Of a stretch of 64,000 bases of DNA, positions 58,038-63,201 are shown one piece after another (within the stretch, counting starts at the first letter, position 1; each line of letters begins with the position of its first letter). Location of the stretch: assembly GCA_001592805.2 (NCBI GenBank), contig CP051141.1, positions 2,790,001 through 2,854,000 of the forward strand, in the 5' to 3' direction. This DNA comes from Peltaster fructicola (lineage: Eukaryota > Ascomycota > Dothideomycetes). A program made the position numbers and the translations under genes. The notes below the pieces were generated by a model that was not told the DNA's origin, did no database searches, and worked only from the letters and a program-made list of their open reading frames with translations.

Positions 58038-59733
58038 ATGAGCTACGAATATGATATCGAGAAGCACCCGGACGTGAAGACGGCCGGGGACCACTCACCA
58101 GTCTCGCCTCAATACTACCAGGGACGAAATGGTCTTGCTGTGGATGAGCACAACGCTGTCGCAGGCGAGAGCTTCGACTATGGCGACGGCATCTATGCCC
58201 GTCTCATGCGCATAGCCGGAAAGTGGAACATCGAGAAGCGTGGCATTGAGCGCGTGCCAGAGGACGAGCGAACAGATCGTGGAACACGGGCACTCTTCAA
58301 TGTCTCGACTATGTGGCTCGCAGCCAACATGGTCGTCTCTTCCTTCGCCATTGGATGTCTTGGCGGCTCAGTCTTCTACCTTGGCACAGCCGATGCGATG
58401 CTGACGGTGCTTTTCTTCAACTTGCTGGGTATCCTTCCTGTCTGCTTCTTCTCGAGCTTCGGACCTGCCTTTGGACTGTAGGTGGTACTATGGACGATTG
58501 CGCGCAGTCGCTGACAATACACAGCCGACAGATGGTGCTCTCGCGATTCTGGTTTGGATGGTATGGAGTCAAACTGAGTAAGTCGTCACATTGACTTGAG
58601 GGAGACACCGTACTTACCCTCGCGCAGTCGCAGTGTTCAACGTCCTCGCCTGCATAGGCTGGTCTGCCGTCAATGCCATTGTCGGAGCTCAGCTCATCAA
58701 CACTGTCAACAACGATGTTCCTGGCTTCGCCGGCATCATCATCATCGCTGTCTGCACTTTCCTTGTCACCCTCTTCGGCTACAAGATTGTCCACGCTTAC
58801 GAGTTCTGGTCCTGGATCCCAACTTTCATTGTCTTCCTGATCGTCCTGGGAGTCTATGCGCATAGTGGAGACTTCATCAACATTCCATGGGGTGTTGGCA
58901 CTAGCGAGATGGGCTCTGTGCTGTCCTTCGGCGCAGTGGTCTTTGGCTTTGCTACCGGCTGGACTCCATACGCTGCTGACTACACTGTCTATCAGCCAAG
59001 CTCTCAGAAGAAGACGAAAGTGTTCTTCTGGACCTGGTTGGGTCTGATTATTCCTCTGCTGTTCACCGAGCTGCTCGCTGTGGCTATCTTCAGTGCAACA
59101 GCGGCCAACGACGGCAACAACCGATATGCAGACGGCTATGCAGCTTCTGGTGCAGGAGGCCTGTTGGGTGCAGTTCTGGTCTACAACCTGGGCACATTCG
59201 GCAAGTTCTGTCTGATCATTCTGGCTCTCTCGATCATTGCCAACAACTGCCCAAACATCTACTCAGTGTCGCTCACTGTGCAGGTCCTTGCTCGCTGGAC
59301 ACAACGTGTGCCACGTTTCCTCTGGACCATCATCGCCAGTCATGTGTACGTTGCCATTTCGATTCCAGCATACTACAAGTTCGAGGAGGCTTTGGAGTAC
59401 TTCATGGACTTCATCGGCTACTGGCTGGCTATCTACGAAGGCATTTCACTCACAGATCACTTCGTCTTCAAGCGAGGTTTCGGCGGATACGTGCCAGAGT
59501 CGTACGATGTGCCAGGCAAGCTCCCACCAGGCATCGCGGCTGTGTTTGCTTTCTGCTGTGGTATCGCTGGCATGGTCACAGGCATGTCTCAGGTTTGGTG
59601 GGTTGGTCCGATTGCTCTGTATGCTGGAGAGTTCCCATTTGGAGGTGATATTGGCTTCGAGCTTGGCTTTGCCTTTGCCGCTGTGGGCTATCTTATCGCT
59701 AGGCCGATCGAGATGAAGTTCTTCGGACGATAG
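58038..59733 (+). CDS. NCS1-family purine-cytosine permease (Fcy2-like)
   Basis: Three exons: 58038-58477, 58525-58577 and 58628-59733 (introns 47 and 50 nt), 532 residues. The short second exon encodes LRQMVLSRFWFGWYGVKL, typical of the family. An acidic cytoplasmic N-terminus is followed by about twelve helices: MWLAANMVVSSFAIGCLGGS, AVFNVLACIGWSAVNAIVGA, FGFATGWTPYAADYTVY, IIANNCPNIYSVSLTVQV, and the ISLTDHFVFKRG loop. Fcy2-type carriers are proton symporters for adenine, guanine, hypoxanthine and cytosine at the plasma membrane; related fungal members take vitamin B6 or other bases. Exact substrate not predictable. Confidence 0.92.
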
Positions 59734-60666
59734 ACCGTGGATAGCTCTGTACTCTTGTTTCTGCGTGTATCACTCTTGTGTATCATGATTGTCGCTTCAT
59801 CGGCAGCTTGTCATTCGCAGCATGGTGCAACTTGCGCAAGCTTTTCTGAACTGCTGGTAACGACCATCTCAGAAAACGTTGTACATCGGTCTGATCTCCC
59901 AACCTTCTCTCCAACAGGTTCACAGGTAGATGCGGTTGTGTCAGTGCAGAGCCAGTGCGGTAAAGACTGCCAGGAGACATAAGCGCCACCGGAAGACTGT
60001 ATCAGGAAAGCCAGGGATACTCAAAACACCATGCGCCGCAAGCAACGCTTTCTTCTGACATAGCCACCAGCATGACTTTGTTGCTCCAGTGCCGCACACA
60101 TGGAGTTTAGATTTCGCAGATCCTTTTGTGTCTGTATGACACTCCGCGATATCACCACGCCGCATAAGAGTATCCTAGTTCTCCTACATCTCTGCCGCAA
60201 ATCTCGCCGCCAACACAACAATTCCATTGTGAACTCGCCAAGCACGCCGCGAATGCTAACAGTACAACGACCAACGTTAGCAGTCAATACTCAAAATAGA
60301 CTGTAGTGATGGAGCGAGGACCATGGTGCCATGCAGATGGGGATGAGGTTAGAAGTATAAAGGTTCGTACGATTGTACCTCGAGCTCATCAGACACAAAC
60401 ACCACAGCAATACCACAGCAAGCACTACAAGGAGCAGGCTCCTCTTCCATTCTATCCTCCCTCTTCTCCTCACACGTCCCAACCACGTCACTGCAGCAGT
60501 ATTTCCGTTTGGGATCTCTTTCAAGGAACAGGCTTCCTTAACACCCACAACATCACTTCAGGAGCAGGCTTCTGACGCTATTTCCTCGCGCACAATCTCC
60601 GGACGACATATCTGCACATCCTTCTCAATCAAGTAACAGCAGTATTCTTTGACAGACGTCGTCAAC
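59734..60666 (+). promoter_or_regulatory. Promoter and long 5' leader of the repeat-peptide precursor gene
   Basis: A TATAAAG box lies at 60356-60362, 305 nt before the precursor's ATG. The stretch from 60,400 to 60,650 is rich in C, T and A, like a long leader. The signal sets the likely direction and start of transcription. Nothing else was recognised upstream to 59,734. Confidence 0.45.
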
Positions 60667-62028
60667 ATGGTCCAAATCAAGCAGCTCATCTTAGCTCCAG
60701 TCTTGCTATCAGCAGTGATAGCTGCTCCCATCCAGAGTAGCGCATCGAGCAACACCTCCTTGACGTCTGCCAAGCCGACTCCTGCTATTGGTCCAGGTGG
60801 AGGCCCAGTCGATGGCTTCTACACTCGAAACCCAGTGAGCGTTCCTACAAAGAAGCCGGCACAAGCTCCCACACAGGCTCCAGCGGGAAGTCCGACCAGG
60901 GTTCCAGCGAAGAGTCCAACAAAGGCTCCATCCAGGTGCCATGTGCAGACACATGCAAAAGGTCCAGGCAAAGATTCAGACAGGATTCCAGCAAAGACAG
61001 GCATTTCCGCTCGTAACGCTCTATTTGGTCGAGATGTCTCAGATGAGGAGCTCGCTACTGCTCTGGATACTGCTCTGCAGAGCATGGCAAGTGAGGATGG
61101 GAAACTGGTGGCTCGTGATCCATTCTTCGGCCTCCTCAAGCAGCTCTTCGGTCTTGGTCGTCGAGACGTCTCTGACACCGAGCTTGACACCGCTCTCCAG
61201 GGCATGGCAAGTGAAGATGGCAAGCTAATGGCTCGTGATCCATTCTTTGGCCTCCTCAAGAAGCTCTTCGGTCTTGGTCGTCGAGATCTTTCCGACGCCG
61301 AGCTTGCCGCCGAGCTCGACGCCGCTCTCCAGAGCATCACAAGTGAGGATGGAAAGCTGGTGGCTCGTGATCCTATCATCGGCCTCCTCAAGCAGCTCTT
61401 CGGTCTTGGTCGTCGAGACAATCCAGCAGACGCCGAGCTTGCCGCCGAGCTTGACGCCAAGCTTGATGCCGCTCTACAGAGCATCACGAGCGAGGACGGA
61501 AAGCTGGTGGCTCGTGATCCTATCATCGGCCTCCTCAAACAGCTATTTGGCCTTGGCCGTCGAGACATCTCAGAGCCGGAGCTGGAGAATGCAGTCGAAG
61601 GCATGGCTGGAGATCTCCAGGAACTCGAAAGCGCTCTCAAGGCTATAGCCCCTGCTGGTCAGGTCCAAGCTCGCGACGCTCTGCTTCCCTTCCTCTTCAA
61701 GGCGATTCCAACCGTTCTTGGTATGTTCAGCAACAAGAAGTCAGGTCGAGATGTTGCAGAGGTAGCGAACGTCTCAGAGGCCGATCTCCAGGCGCTCGAG
61801 AACGCTCTCAAGGCCATGGTCCCTGCCGGTCAGGTTCAAGCTCGCGACCCTCTCTTCCCGTTCCTCTTCAAGATGCTTCCAACCATTCTCGGTGCAGGCA
61901 GCGACAAGAAGTCTAGTCGAGATGTTGCTGATATCGCCAATGTCTCAGAGGCCGATCTTAAAGAGCTTGAAAACGCTTTGAAGTCGATGATACCAGCTGA
62001 TAAGCTTCAGAGTCGGGAGACTCGTTAA
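60667..62028 (+). CDS. Secreted repeat-peptide precursor (KEP-like polyprotein), six candidate peptides
   Basis: Single exon, 453 residues from the ATG that begins the signal peptide MVQIKQLILAPVLLSAVIA. Residues ~35-100 form a Pro/Lys/Thr/Ala spacer (PTKKPAQAPTQAPAGSPTRV). Then come tandem units. Four class A units each have an acidic helical propiece (SDEELATALDTALQSMASED) and a 16-residue core: DPFFGLLKQLFGLGRR, DPFFGLLKKLFGLGRR, and DPIIGLLKQLFGLGRR twice. Two class B units have a propiece with LQALENALKAMVPAGQVQAR and a 25-residue core beginning DALLPFLFKAIPTVLG or DPLFPFLFKMLPTILG, with KKS near the end. Every boundary is Arg-Asp (13 in all), often Arg-Arg-Asp. The layout matches fungal Kex2-processed repeat proteins and venom-type peptide precursors. 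Cores look amphipathic and cationic. No DUF3328 or other RiPP tailoring gene is in the window. Function unknown. Confidence 0.85.
   Translation: MVQIKQLILAPVLLSAVIAAPIQSSASSNTSLTSAKPTPAIGPGGGPVDGFYTRNPVSVPTKKPAQAPTQAPAGSPTRVPAKSPTKAPSRCHVQTHAKGPGKDSDRIPAKTGISARNALFGRDVSDEELATALDTALQSMASEDGKLVARDPFFGLLKQLFGLGRRDVSDTELDTALQGMASEDGKLMARDPFFGLLKKLFGLGRRDLSDAELAAELDAALQSITSEDGKLVARDPIIGLLKQLFGLGRRDNPADAELAAELDAKLDAALQSITSEDGKLVARDPIIGLLKQLFGLGRRDISEPELENAVEGMAGDLQELESALKAIAPAGQVQARDALLPFLFKAIPTVLGMFSNKKSGRDVAEVANVSEADLQALENALKAMVPAGQVQARDPLFPFLFKMLPTILGAGSDKKSSRDVADIANVSEADLKELENALKSMIPADKLQSRETR
61033..61563 (+). repeat. Class A coding repeats of the precursor (four copies)
   Basis: Cores lie at 61117-61164, 61237-61284, 61369-61416 and 61516-61563. 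The first two are exactly 120 nt apart; later spacing grows to 132 and 147 nt through short in-frame additions of Ala-Glu-Leu-Asp-type codons in the propiece. Copies 3 and 4 have the same core peptide and nearly the same DNA, indicating recent duplication or conversion. Confidence 0.9.
61564..62028 (+). repeat. Class B coding repeats of the precursor (two full units and a terminal propiece)
   Basis: Cores lie at 61675-61749 and 61846-61920, 171 nt apart. A third propiece (VSEADLKELENALKSMIPAD) ends the protein without a core. The units share the Arg-Asp boundaries with class A but differ in core length and sequence. Confidence 0.85.
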
Positions 62029-63201
62029 GGCCTCAATCTCAAGGATGTGATCCACCAGCACGGCTCTGGACCCTTGAACCTCTTCCACTGCGCAACGGAC
62101 TCAAGCTGAACGTATCATCGATCGACGATCATCTGCCGGCTCTTGGGAAGGGAACAACCTCCTGCTAAGTCTTATGCTGGCATGCTCGAAATGTGTGAGG
62201 CATAGGTGTACAGGGCCGTGGTATGCCTCTCCCTGTGGCGCCGAACGATAAGTGGCTTCGATGGATGCAATGAGATCATGTAATCATTGTGATCAGTACT
62301 TCGTAGCAATATCGAATCATCTCTCTTATCACTGAGTGTCCGGAAAATATCTACTGTGCCATAGTGGTATCATCATGGAGGCTGGCGTTACCAGCATCGT
62401 TCTTCGTCTTGTCGTTCATCAGCCAGGCTGAGCTTGGCGAGCAGTCGTCGGTACTGATCTGAAAGGTTAAAGTAGTGCTGACATACGCTTGTCACTAGAC
62501 AATCTCTGTGTCAGATGTGTGGCTGCACTGTTGCTCTTCTCGGGCAGAGTATACGCTACATCGATGTCGACGTCGTGCGCTGCCGCAACTAGCACTACCA
62601 CTGAGGACACTGCTCTCCTAGAAGTGCAGTGTCATGAAGCTCTCGTGTGTGGTAGCACACCCTTGCGCCGGTACTGTCGTTCAATAGTCAGAATGTTTGC
62701 TGAGCTTGAGGATTGCTTGGCGCTGAGTTGTGTACGAACGATAGGTTAGTACATGCTGATACCAGCGATGTATCAGGCGTGCTCCAAGCCTCGGATCTCT
62801 GCATACATGACCCGGTGGTAGAGCCCTTCTGTCTCCATGCTGCGTTAGTGAGGATGATGAAATCCTTGGCCGCAGCTTGACACATGTCCGCTGTCATGAT
62901 GAGAGAGTTCGAGGTCCAGTACGAGGGACTTGTATGTTGCAGGTCATTCAGGTGAGTTCTGTTCCTTCTAGATGTAGAGGGTCTGCGTCCACGAGATCAC
63001 TGCGACGGATAATCTTGCACTACGCCGACTCTTACAGGGTGAGAATCTGTGTATAATATGATATTTCATCTCGGTACGGACTGAAGTAAACGCACGCTCG
63101 CTGACAATCATCGAAGCATTACCAAAACACTGTCCACCATGACTGTGTCTCGGACTCTCACCCACGACATCTCGCTCAACAACTCTTTCAACGCTCAGGC
63201 T
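62029..63201. other. Intergenic stretch with no supported gene
   Basis: 1.2 kb between two convergent genes. A plus-strand Cys-rich frame (62,489-62,749) has no ATG ahead of its hydrophobic segment. A minus-strand frame (62,688-62,897) has no family features. I see no repeat or RNA gene. Confidence 0.45.

Follow-up and report, generated by a model that had tools for sequence, protein, structure and literature searches.

A gene on the plus strand of the 64,000-nucleotide window of Peltaster fructicola analyzed here (contig CP051141.1, positions 2,790,001 to 2,854,000; the gene lies at window positions 60667 to 62028) is predicted to encode a secreted precursor of membrane-active peptides that would be processed by enzymes of the Kex2, Ste13, and Kex1 types. 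Taken whole, we give this reading slightly better than even chances. Cutting of the precursor is very likely, judging from its junctions, and a membrane or antimicrobial action of the peptides is about evenly balanced. A preliminary description of this DNA had proposed a secreted, protease-processed polyprotein with peptides of two classes, which the sequence anatomy and the junction grammar both support. A larger paralogue, AMS68_003803, was found in the same genome.

The frame begins MVQIKQLILAPVLLSAVIAAPIQ and runs from a signal-like leader through a spacer of Pro, Lys, and Thr into acidic segments that alternate with basic cores. There are seven acidic segments and six cores, four of 16 residues (class A; two DPFFGLLK(Q/K)LFGLGRR and two DPIIGLLKQLFGLGRR) and two of 25 residues (class B; one DALLPFLFKAIPTVLGMFSNKKSGR and one DPLFPFLFKMLPTILGAGSDKKSSR). 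Net charge is +2 to +3 in the cores and -3 to -6 in the acidic propieces. The signal peptide, the Pro/Lys spacer, and the four class A and two class B cores of the preliminary description were all located in frame. Its count of 13 Arg-Asp junctions in 453 residues is correct, but Arg-Arg-Asp occurs four times (residues 166, 206, 250, and 299) and not five. The acidic propieces that it placed before each core do alternate with basic cores, with a seventh following the final core.

60667..62028, plus strand: whole coding sequence, 453 codons and stop, an open frame that needs no intron
60667..60726, plus strand: signal-peptide-like leader MVQIKQLILAPVLLSAVIAA, residues 1-20, cleavage point placed by eye; a similar leader, MVQVKSFVVVPLLAAAVAAA, occurs in the paralogue
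60727..61032, plus strand: Pro/Lys/Thr-rich spacer, residues 21-122, ending ISAR-NALFGR; PT repeat below the Pfam cut-off
61033..61116, plus strand: acidic propiece 1, residues 123-150, net -5
61117..61164, plus strand: class A core 1, DP + FFGLLKQLFGLG + RR
61165..61236, plus strand: acidic propiece 2, residues 167-190, net -4
61237..61284, plus strand: class A core 2, DP + FFGLLKKLFGLG + RR
61285..61368, plus strand: acidic propiece 3, residues 207-234, net -5
61369..61416, plus strand: class A core 3, DP + IIGLLKQLFGLG + RR
61417..61515, plus strand: acidic propiece 4, residues 251-283, net -5
61516..61563, plus strand: class A core 4, DP + IIGLLKQLFGLG + RR
61564..61674, plus strand: acidic propiece 5, residues 300-336, net -6
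61675..61749, plus strand: class B core 1, DA + LLPFLFKAIPTVLGMFSN + KKSGR
61750..61845, plus strand: acidic propiece 6, residues 362-393, net -3
61846..61920, plus strand: class B core 2, DP + LFPFLFKMLPTILGAGSD + KKSSR
61921..62028, plus strand: terminal acidic segment 7, residues 419-450, net -3, then ETR and stop, with no core after it

Directly 5' of propiece 1, ISAR-NALFGR (residues 113-122; 61003-61032) is possibly a decayed or truncated core with an N-A dipeptide.

Searches of the organism's own genome (18,987,130 bases in five contigs) identified one other gene, AMS68_003803 (locus L004, G000:C2:4064664-4067933, minus strand; 1089 aa, E 2.4e-17). It lies on a different chromosome and has the same leader type (MVQVKSFVVVPLLAAAVAAAP), propiece/core alternation, and promoter. 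Its 20 non-acidic segments comprise seven GFLDTLKGIFSKIFGKR-type cores, five GWGSIISTG-type cores, and eight others, and its C-terminal end is a 45-residue tail with four cysteines. The first 400 residues hold other segments headed by X-A or X-P (Gln/Gly/Pro-rich segments, two GWGNYQG-like, and two DGASSVSTI); these early segments and the cysteine tail are possibly further product types. The gene lies near a chromosome end, at a distance of ~59 kb (contig of 4,126,644 bases with a terminal TAGGG repeat), and the TAGGG repeat is present at the two contig ends of the genome that were read. The published genome is reported to have five chromosomes, 18.99 Mb, and a TAGGG telomere unit (PMC7181583).

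To define segments, both proteins were cut mechanically after Arg before Asp, Glu, or Ala, and segments with a net charge of at least 0 were counted as cores and those below 0 as propieces. The count excludes the 3-residue end ETR and the residues before 123 in the 453-residue protein and before 37 in the paralogue. All 26 non-acidic segments start with Asp or Glu followed by Ala or Pro, compared to 2 of 22 acidic segments (Fisher 1.4e-11, calculated over repeats that share descent and are not independent). The two acidic exceptions are the cysteine tail of the paralogue and one DAEA propiece. An X-A or X-P dipeptide stands directly after the cut in 6/6 cores of the 453-residue protein and 20/20 non-acidic segments of the paralogue, and in 25 of these 26 the cut falls after a lone Arg and not after KR or RR. 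Five near-identical GWGS cores start with EAEA, EP, DP, DA, and EA, varying in the sequence and number of dipeptides and staying within the X-A/X-P type. Because the repeats descend from one another, these varied Ste13-type starts are stronger support than the Fisher value.

STE13 is reported to remove X-A and X-P after Kex2 in alpha-pheromones, and its signature is present in other Kex2-processed repeat proteins (KEPs) (PMC6339444; PMC9769878). The D-P and D-A at the core starts look like dipeptides of this Ste13/dipeptidyl peptidase IV (DPP IV) kind, and for this reason the mature peptides are predicted to start after the dipeptide (with FFGLLKQLFGLG in core 1) and not at Asp, where the preliminary description had placed their starts.

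The junctions are not of one kind. Those from core to propiece are RR or KKSxR, and all six from propiece to core in the 453-residue protein have a lone Arg and, at P4, Leu or Val (LVAR, LMAR, or VQAR). Over both genes, Leu, Ile, or Val occupies P4 in 27/36 single-Arg sites before Asp, Glu, or Ala. Single Arg accounts for 10/14 predicted cuts in the 453-residue protein and 36/49 over both genes, most of them aliphatic-x-x-Arg. Pro after Arg blocks Kex2-like proteases. In the paralogue, 35 of the 43 Arg after residue 20 are directly before Asp, Glu, or Ala, and six of the remaining eight are before Pro. In the 453-residue protein, 14/24 Arg are before Asp, Glu, or Ala; the others are in the spacer (five), first in an RR pair (four), or the last residue (one). 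In the expanded motif described for Kex2, P4 is preferably aliphatic (Leu or others) and P2 need not be Lys (PMC8528282).

In the proposed pathway the signal peptide would be removed and a Kex2-type protease would cut after RR, KR, and single Arg, mostly with Leu, Ile, or Val at P4. A membrane-bound dipeptidyl peptidase of the Ste13/DapB type would then trim D-P or D-A off each core, and a Kex1-type carboxypeptidase would strip the C-terminal basic residues. Predicted products of the 453-residue precursor are four hydrophobic peptides of 12 residues (FFGLLK(Q/K)LFGLG forms, and IIGLLKQLFGLG twice) and two strongly helix-amphipathic peptides of ~18-22 residues (LLPFLFKAIPTVLG... and LFPFLFKMLPTILG...). 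AMS68_003803 would add seven GFLDTLKGIFSKIFG-type and five GWGSIISTG-type peptides. The propieces, mostly without a trimming dipeptide, probably hold the cores in a soluble, harmless state until they are cut free, and the released peptides would act on membranes of microbial competitors at the plant surface.

Candidates for these enzymes were identified in the genome. The single P-domain match, a candidate kexin, also carries an S8 domain, and its C-terminal part, read by eye, has a membrane segment and a tail. The single DPPIV_N/S9 protein, read in the same way, has its membrane segment at the N-terminus, like Ste13/DapB. The S10 carboxypeptidase family has 12 matches, some apparently fragments of one gene. 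Class A and GFLD cores end in G-RR or G-KR; a PAM-domain search was empty, as were its controls, which makes it uninformative.

Fifteen core strings (one of them a class A core minus its last Gly) were compared with shuffles in a hydrophobic-moment scan from 60 to 180 degrees. The best angle was 90-110 degrees in all 15. The helical moment was significant (p <= 0.03) in six strings (the two class B and two GWGS strings, TVAS, and KVNV), borderline for GFLD (0.047-0.055) and class A (0.058-0.107), and without signal for AKGK and KNGK. The 170-degree moment, which marks beta periodicity, was significant in 0/15. On a helix wheel, five of nine core types separate beyond shuffles; the share of shuffles that match is 0.0006 and 0.0064 for class B, 0.0019-0.0028 for GFLD, 0.0054-0.0203 for GWGS, 0.0103 for TVAS, and 0.0140 for KVNV. 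The separation of all nine class B, GFLD, and GWGS strings is reached by at most 0.0203 of shuffles. One of five tested propieces was below 0.05. An AlphaFold2 (AF2) model of one propiece-core unit, built from six window repeats, has helices at 4-20 and 30-40 and a loop across the junction (predicted local distance difference test score [pLDDT] 65).

Ratios of nonsynonymous to synonymous differences (pN/pS) among the repeats are 0.18 for class A cores, 0.19 for GFLD, and 0.17 for GWGS (first 16 residues from GWGS). For the propieces they are 0.15 for class A (last 18 residues), 0.31 for GWGS (last 24 residues, three of five used), and 0.88 for GFLD (last 24 residues). These values indicate that class A, GFLD, and GWGS cores and class A propieces are kept, and that GFLD propieces drift. 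The repeat pattern is more than chance because the class A differences are mostly synonymous and the paralogue, which sits on another chromosome, repeats the grammar.

Relatives were sought among ~5.8 billion proteins with three queries: the whole 453-residue protein, its segment 112-453, and the paralogue segment 430-1030. Searches scored the ~8000 candidates with the most shared words, at 0.55-1.75 times the query length. Within this scope each query matched only its own gene, no homologue among animal antimicrobial peptides was found, and, in agreement with the preliminary description, no described peptide with these cores came to light. Distant relatives, short peptides, or precursors could be missed because of the ~8000-candidate and length limits. 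The 453-residue protein has no match in the PDB, in Pfam above the cut-off, or in NCBIfam, and three cores compared with PDB chains of at least 20 residues gave none at E <= 10. A Pfam match to MtrF in the paralogue (25.3 bits against a 22-bit cut-off, over 28 residues of propiece) was taken as chance. Among the open-licence papers listed in literature searches, titles and abstract openings contain no report of these core peptides; the supplementary tables of the KEP survey lie outside that scope.

Among known systems, antimicrobial polyproteins of amphibian skin and insects alternate acidic propieces with basic amphipathic cores, and the pro part of promelittin was reportedly found by Kreil in 1980 to be stripped stepwise by DPP IV. 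The gene pair has the same acidic/basic alternation; it differs in its fungal host, in having no sequence relation found in the searches, and in class A and GFLD cores that end in Gly-basic with no amidating enzyme identified. Ascomycete alpha-pheromone precursors share the Kex2, Ste13 (EAEA-like dipeptides), and Kex1 steps predicted here and have other core sequences, whereas the gene pair has acidic propieces, several product types, and, in the 453-residue protein, no MF_alpha match. In Candida albicans, Kex2 and then Kex1 cutting of Ece1 frees candidalysin, an amphipathic membrane-damaging peptide (PMC5784256), and the toxin is one of eight peptides (PMC7329392). Order of cutting in a polyprotein is the likeness predicted for the gene pair; by their descriptions the two are set apart by cutting of Ece1 at KR and, here, by repeated cores, Ste13-type dipeptides, and acidic propieces.

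The KEP survey asks for at least four fragments from in-silico cutting at KR/RR and at least three similar fragments that cover at least 15% of the protein (PMC6339444). Cutting gives 5 fragments in the 453-residue protein and 10 in the paralogue. Similar fragments, judged from repeat alignments and not FIMO, are 40, 44, and 49 aa in the former (3 x 40 / 453 = 26%) and six of 47-48 aa in the 1089 residues of the latter. By these two fragment criteria and its STE13 signature, the gene pair is read as belonging with the KEPs. The survey also requires a signal peptide and no further membrane span; by eye, the leader here resembles a signal peptide. It resembles them as a secreted precursor with repeats between Kex2 sites and X-A/X-P dipeptides after the cut, and differs in having mostly single-Arg cuts, acidic propieces between cores, and several product types per precursor. 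In the survey, 77 of 1193 KEPs have two motif types and two have three (PMC6339444).

Several results weigh against processing into membrane-active peptides. The cores had been described as amphipathic, with a helical-wheel analysis suggested as a check; this is borne out for class B, but four of nine core types (class A, KNGK, KIPL, and GWGN) do not separate. Class A, the main core type in the 453-residue protein, is not distinguished from shuffles by wheel (0.13-0.14) or moment (0.058-0.107), and a windowed-moment test was below 0.05 in only 3/26 cores. The AF2 model of the whole precursor is uninformative (pLDDT 35), and the single pair of class B cores has a pN/pS of 0.75 over 20 residues. 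Acidic propiece 557-584 of the paralogue starts with DAEA, breaking the dipeptide rule. P2 is Ala at 6/6 propiece-to-core sites of the 453-residue protein, outside the five best Lys alternatives listed for Kex2 (PMC8528282). The S10 matches are at the family level, which does not distinguish Kex1 from other S10 enzymes. A genome-wide MF_alpha search gave one match below the cut-off and no control over it, so it shows little and leaves Ste13 use uncalibrated.

The main rival is that the peptides are surface active and coat the hyphae and waxy cuticle, serving in wetting, anchoring, or water repelling without killing, as Rep1 of Ustilago maydis does. Hyphae of P. fructicola are reported to be partly within apple wax (PMC4786788), and Rep1 is a Kex2-cut repeat protein that yields several secreted peptides, as is predicted for the precursor here, and whose peptides act at the hyphal surface (PMC8528282). 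The cores are also hydrophobic (class A mean Eisenberg hydrophobicity 0.52-0.61) and weakly charged. Rep1 peptides form amyloid-like fibrils (PMC8528282), whereas the periodicity of the cores is helical and not beta, and the genome retains at least one hydrophobin, which leaves no obvious need for a substitute. Both points still leave room for a surface role, which we consider unlikely on balance. Less probable again are alpha-pheromone-like signals read by a receptor. Alpha-pheromone precursors of ascomycetes use the same combination of Kex2 and Ste13 signals, EAEA among them (PMC6339444; PMC9769878), but two to many product types per precursor and hydrophobic cores would suit bulk physical action better, and a Pfam scan of the 453-residue protein found no MF_alpha match at E <= 1.

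An uncut secreted or wall protein with structural repeats is very improbable. In its favor, the repetitive frame is unbroken, products have yet to be detected, and AF2 places helices in propieces and cores alike, at low confidence. Against this, Arg serves almost only as punctuation in the paralogue, the X-A/X-P rule would serve no evident purpose if the protein stayed whole, and no Pfam domain was found above the cut-off. A cyclized peptide of the dikaritin (ustiloxin) type, a ribosomally synthesized and post-translationally modified peptide, was also considered. UstYa (DUF3328) is matched twice in the genome, on this chromosome at a distance of ~87 kb and on contig C1, and not at all on the chromosome of the paralogue; because UstYa is so distant, this reading was rejected. 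A membrane-active antimicrobial function is the likeliest because the cores are hydrophobic and basic, five of nine types show helical periodicity, the propieces are acidic, and the fungus lives at a surface.

The 5' leaders of the two genes are alike: TATAA(A/G), 29 or 30 bp, CTCATCAGACA, and then 282 or 380 bases to the ATG (window gene and paralogue, respectively).

60356..60361, plus strand: TATA box-like TATAAA, 29 bp upstream of CTCATCAGACA (30 bp in the paralogue)
60385..60395, plus strand: CTCATCAGACA, shared with the paralogue promoter; unique in the window, both strands counted
60430..60443, plus strand: inverted repeat 1, 5-bp stem and loop CAGG, of the Smaug/Vts1 element type
60523..60539, plus strand: hairpin 2, AAGGAA-CAGGC-TTCCTT, folding locally at each of three span settings (minimum-energy structure)
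60558..60575, plus strand: hairpin 3, TCAGGAG-CAGG-CTTCTGA (one G-U pair), local if pairing span is limited, otherwise pairing with repeat 1
G000:C2:4068049-4068269, minus strand (L004): array of CNGG-loop inverted repeats in the paralogue leader

CTCATCAGACA at 60385..60395 is the probable transcript start. Farther upstream, at 58633-59733, is a long membrane-protein frame with, by eye, the look of a purine/cytosine-type permease. Inverted repeats with a CNGG loop plus 0-2 bases and a stem of at least 4 bp number three in the window leader and four in the paralogue leader (three and three with at least 5 bp). All are on the sense strand, with 0 antisense, and their number was reached by 0 of 3000 dinucleotide shuffles of either leader. 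The stems differ by paired changes (G-C/A-T; A-T/C-G/T-A), judged by reading. The 15-base core of hairpin 2, AGGAACAGGCTTCCT, has exactly two copies in the 18.99-Mb genome, one in each leader, and TCAGGRCAGGCTTCCTGA has exactly two, both within the leader of the paralogue. The loops fit the Smaug/Vts1 hairpin consensus, which is given as CNGGN0-3 (PMC4053848), and a Vts1-like SAM domain is encoded in the genome (L045; E 8e-21 to yeast Vts1). The top SAM-domain match, L042, is MAPKKK-like by eye and was dropped as a Vts1 candidate.

With pairing limited to a span of 60 bases, 2/3 repeats in the window leader and 3/4 in the paralogue leader fold as local hairpins. Inverted repeat 1 is not a local hairpin in any of the minimum-energy structures computed at three span settings, and its mean pair probability is 0.03-0.53. 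Unlimited span leaves 1/3 and 1/4 local, with the outer copies pairing together, which speaks against an array of RNA hairpins. A palindromic site at the DNA level is a real alternative because long-range pairing competes with local hairpins; an RNA element is still favored because the repeats are all oriented to one strand and lie downstream of the TATA box. Rfam has no match in 60200-62400. A genome search for the leader pattern with at most two mismatches gave 49 matches, compared to 52 for a reversed control, and among 30 loci examined of the 49 only the two known genes have the repeated junction grammar. A second pattern with at most three mismatches gave 47 matches against 31 for its control, and there may be more leaders of this kind in the genome; the junction-grammar screen covered the first pattern only.

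A bolder reading, to which we give less than even odds, is that these genes form a two-gene family, found here in one sooty-blotch fungus only, that is a fungal counterpart of frog-skin and bee-venom precursors. It would combine the pheromone-processing line with acidic/basic alternation, a mixture of helical membrane-active peptides, and one post-transcriptional switch acting through Smaug/Vts1-type hairpins in both leaders; the single local hairpin that each leader keeps in unrestricted folding lowers its odds. With the shared leader elements, Vts1 control could be tested directly in a filamentous fungus. The products would be misread by a survey restricted to cutting at KR, RR, or KK, as described in PMC6339444, because most predicted cuts are at single Arg. 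The P. fructicola genome is reported to be among the smallest known of filamentous fungi (PMC7181583), and its secretome is described as strongly reduced, with 107 predicted secreted proteins and 12 small secreted proteins (PMC4786788). Yet two precursors without known relatives, with 26 non-acidic segments between them, have been kept. If the peptides are membrane active, the fungus would have arrived independently at the design of animal antimicrobial polyproteins through the pheromone-processing line, and the cores would be new peptide scaffolds.

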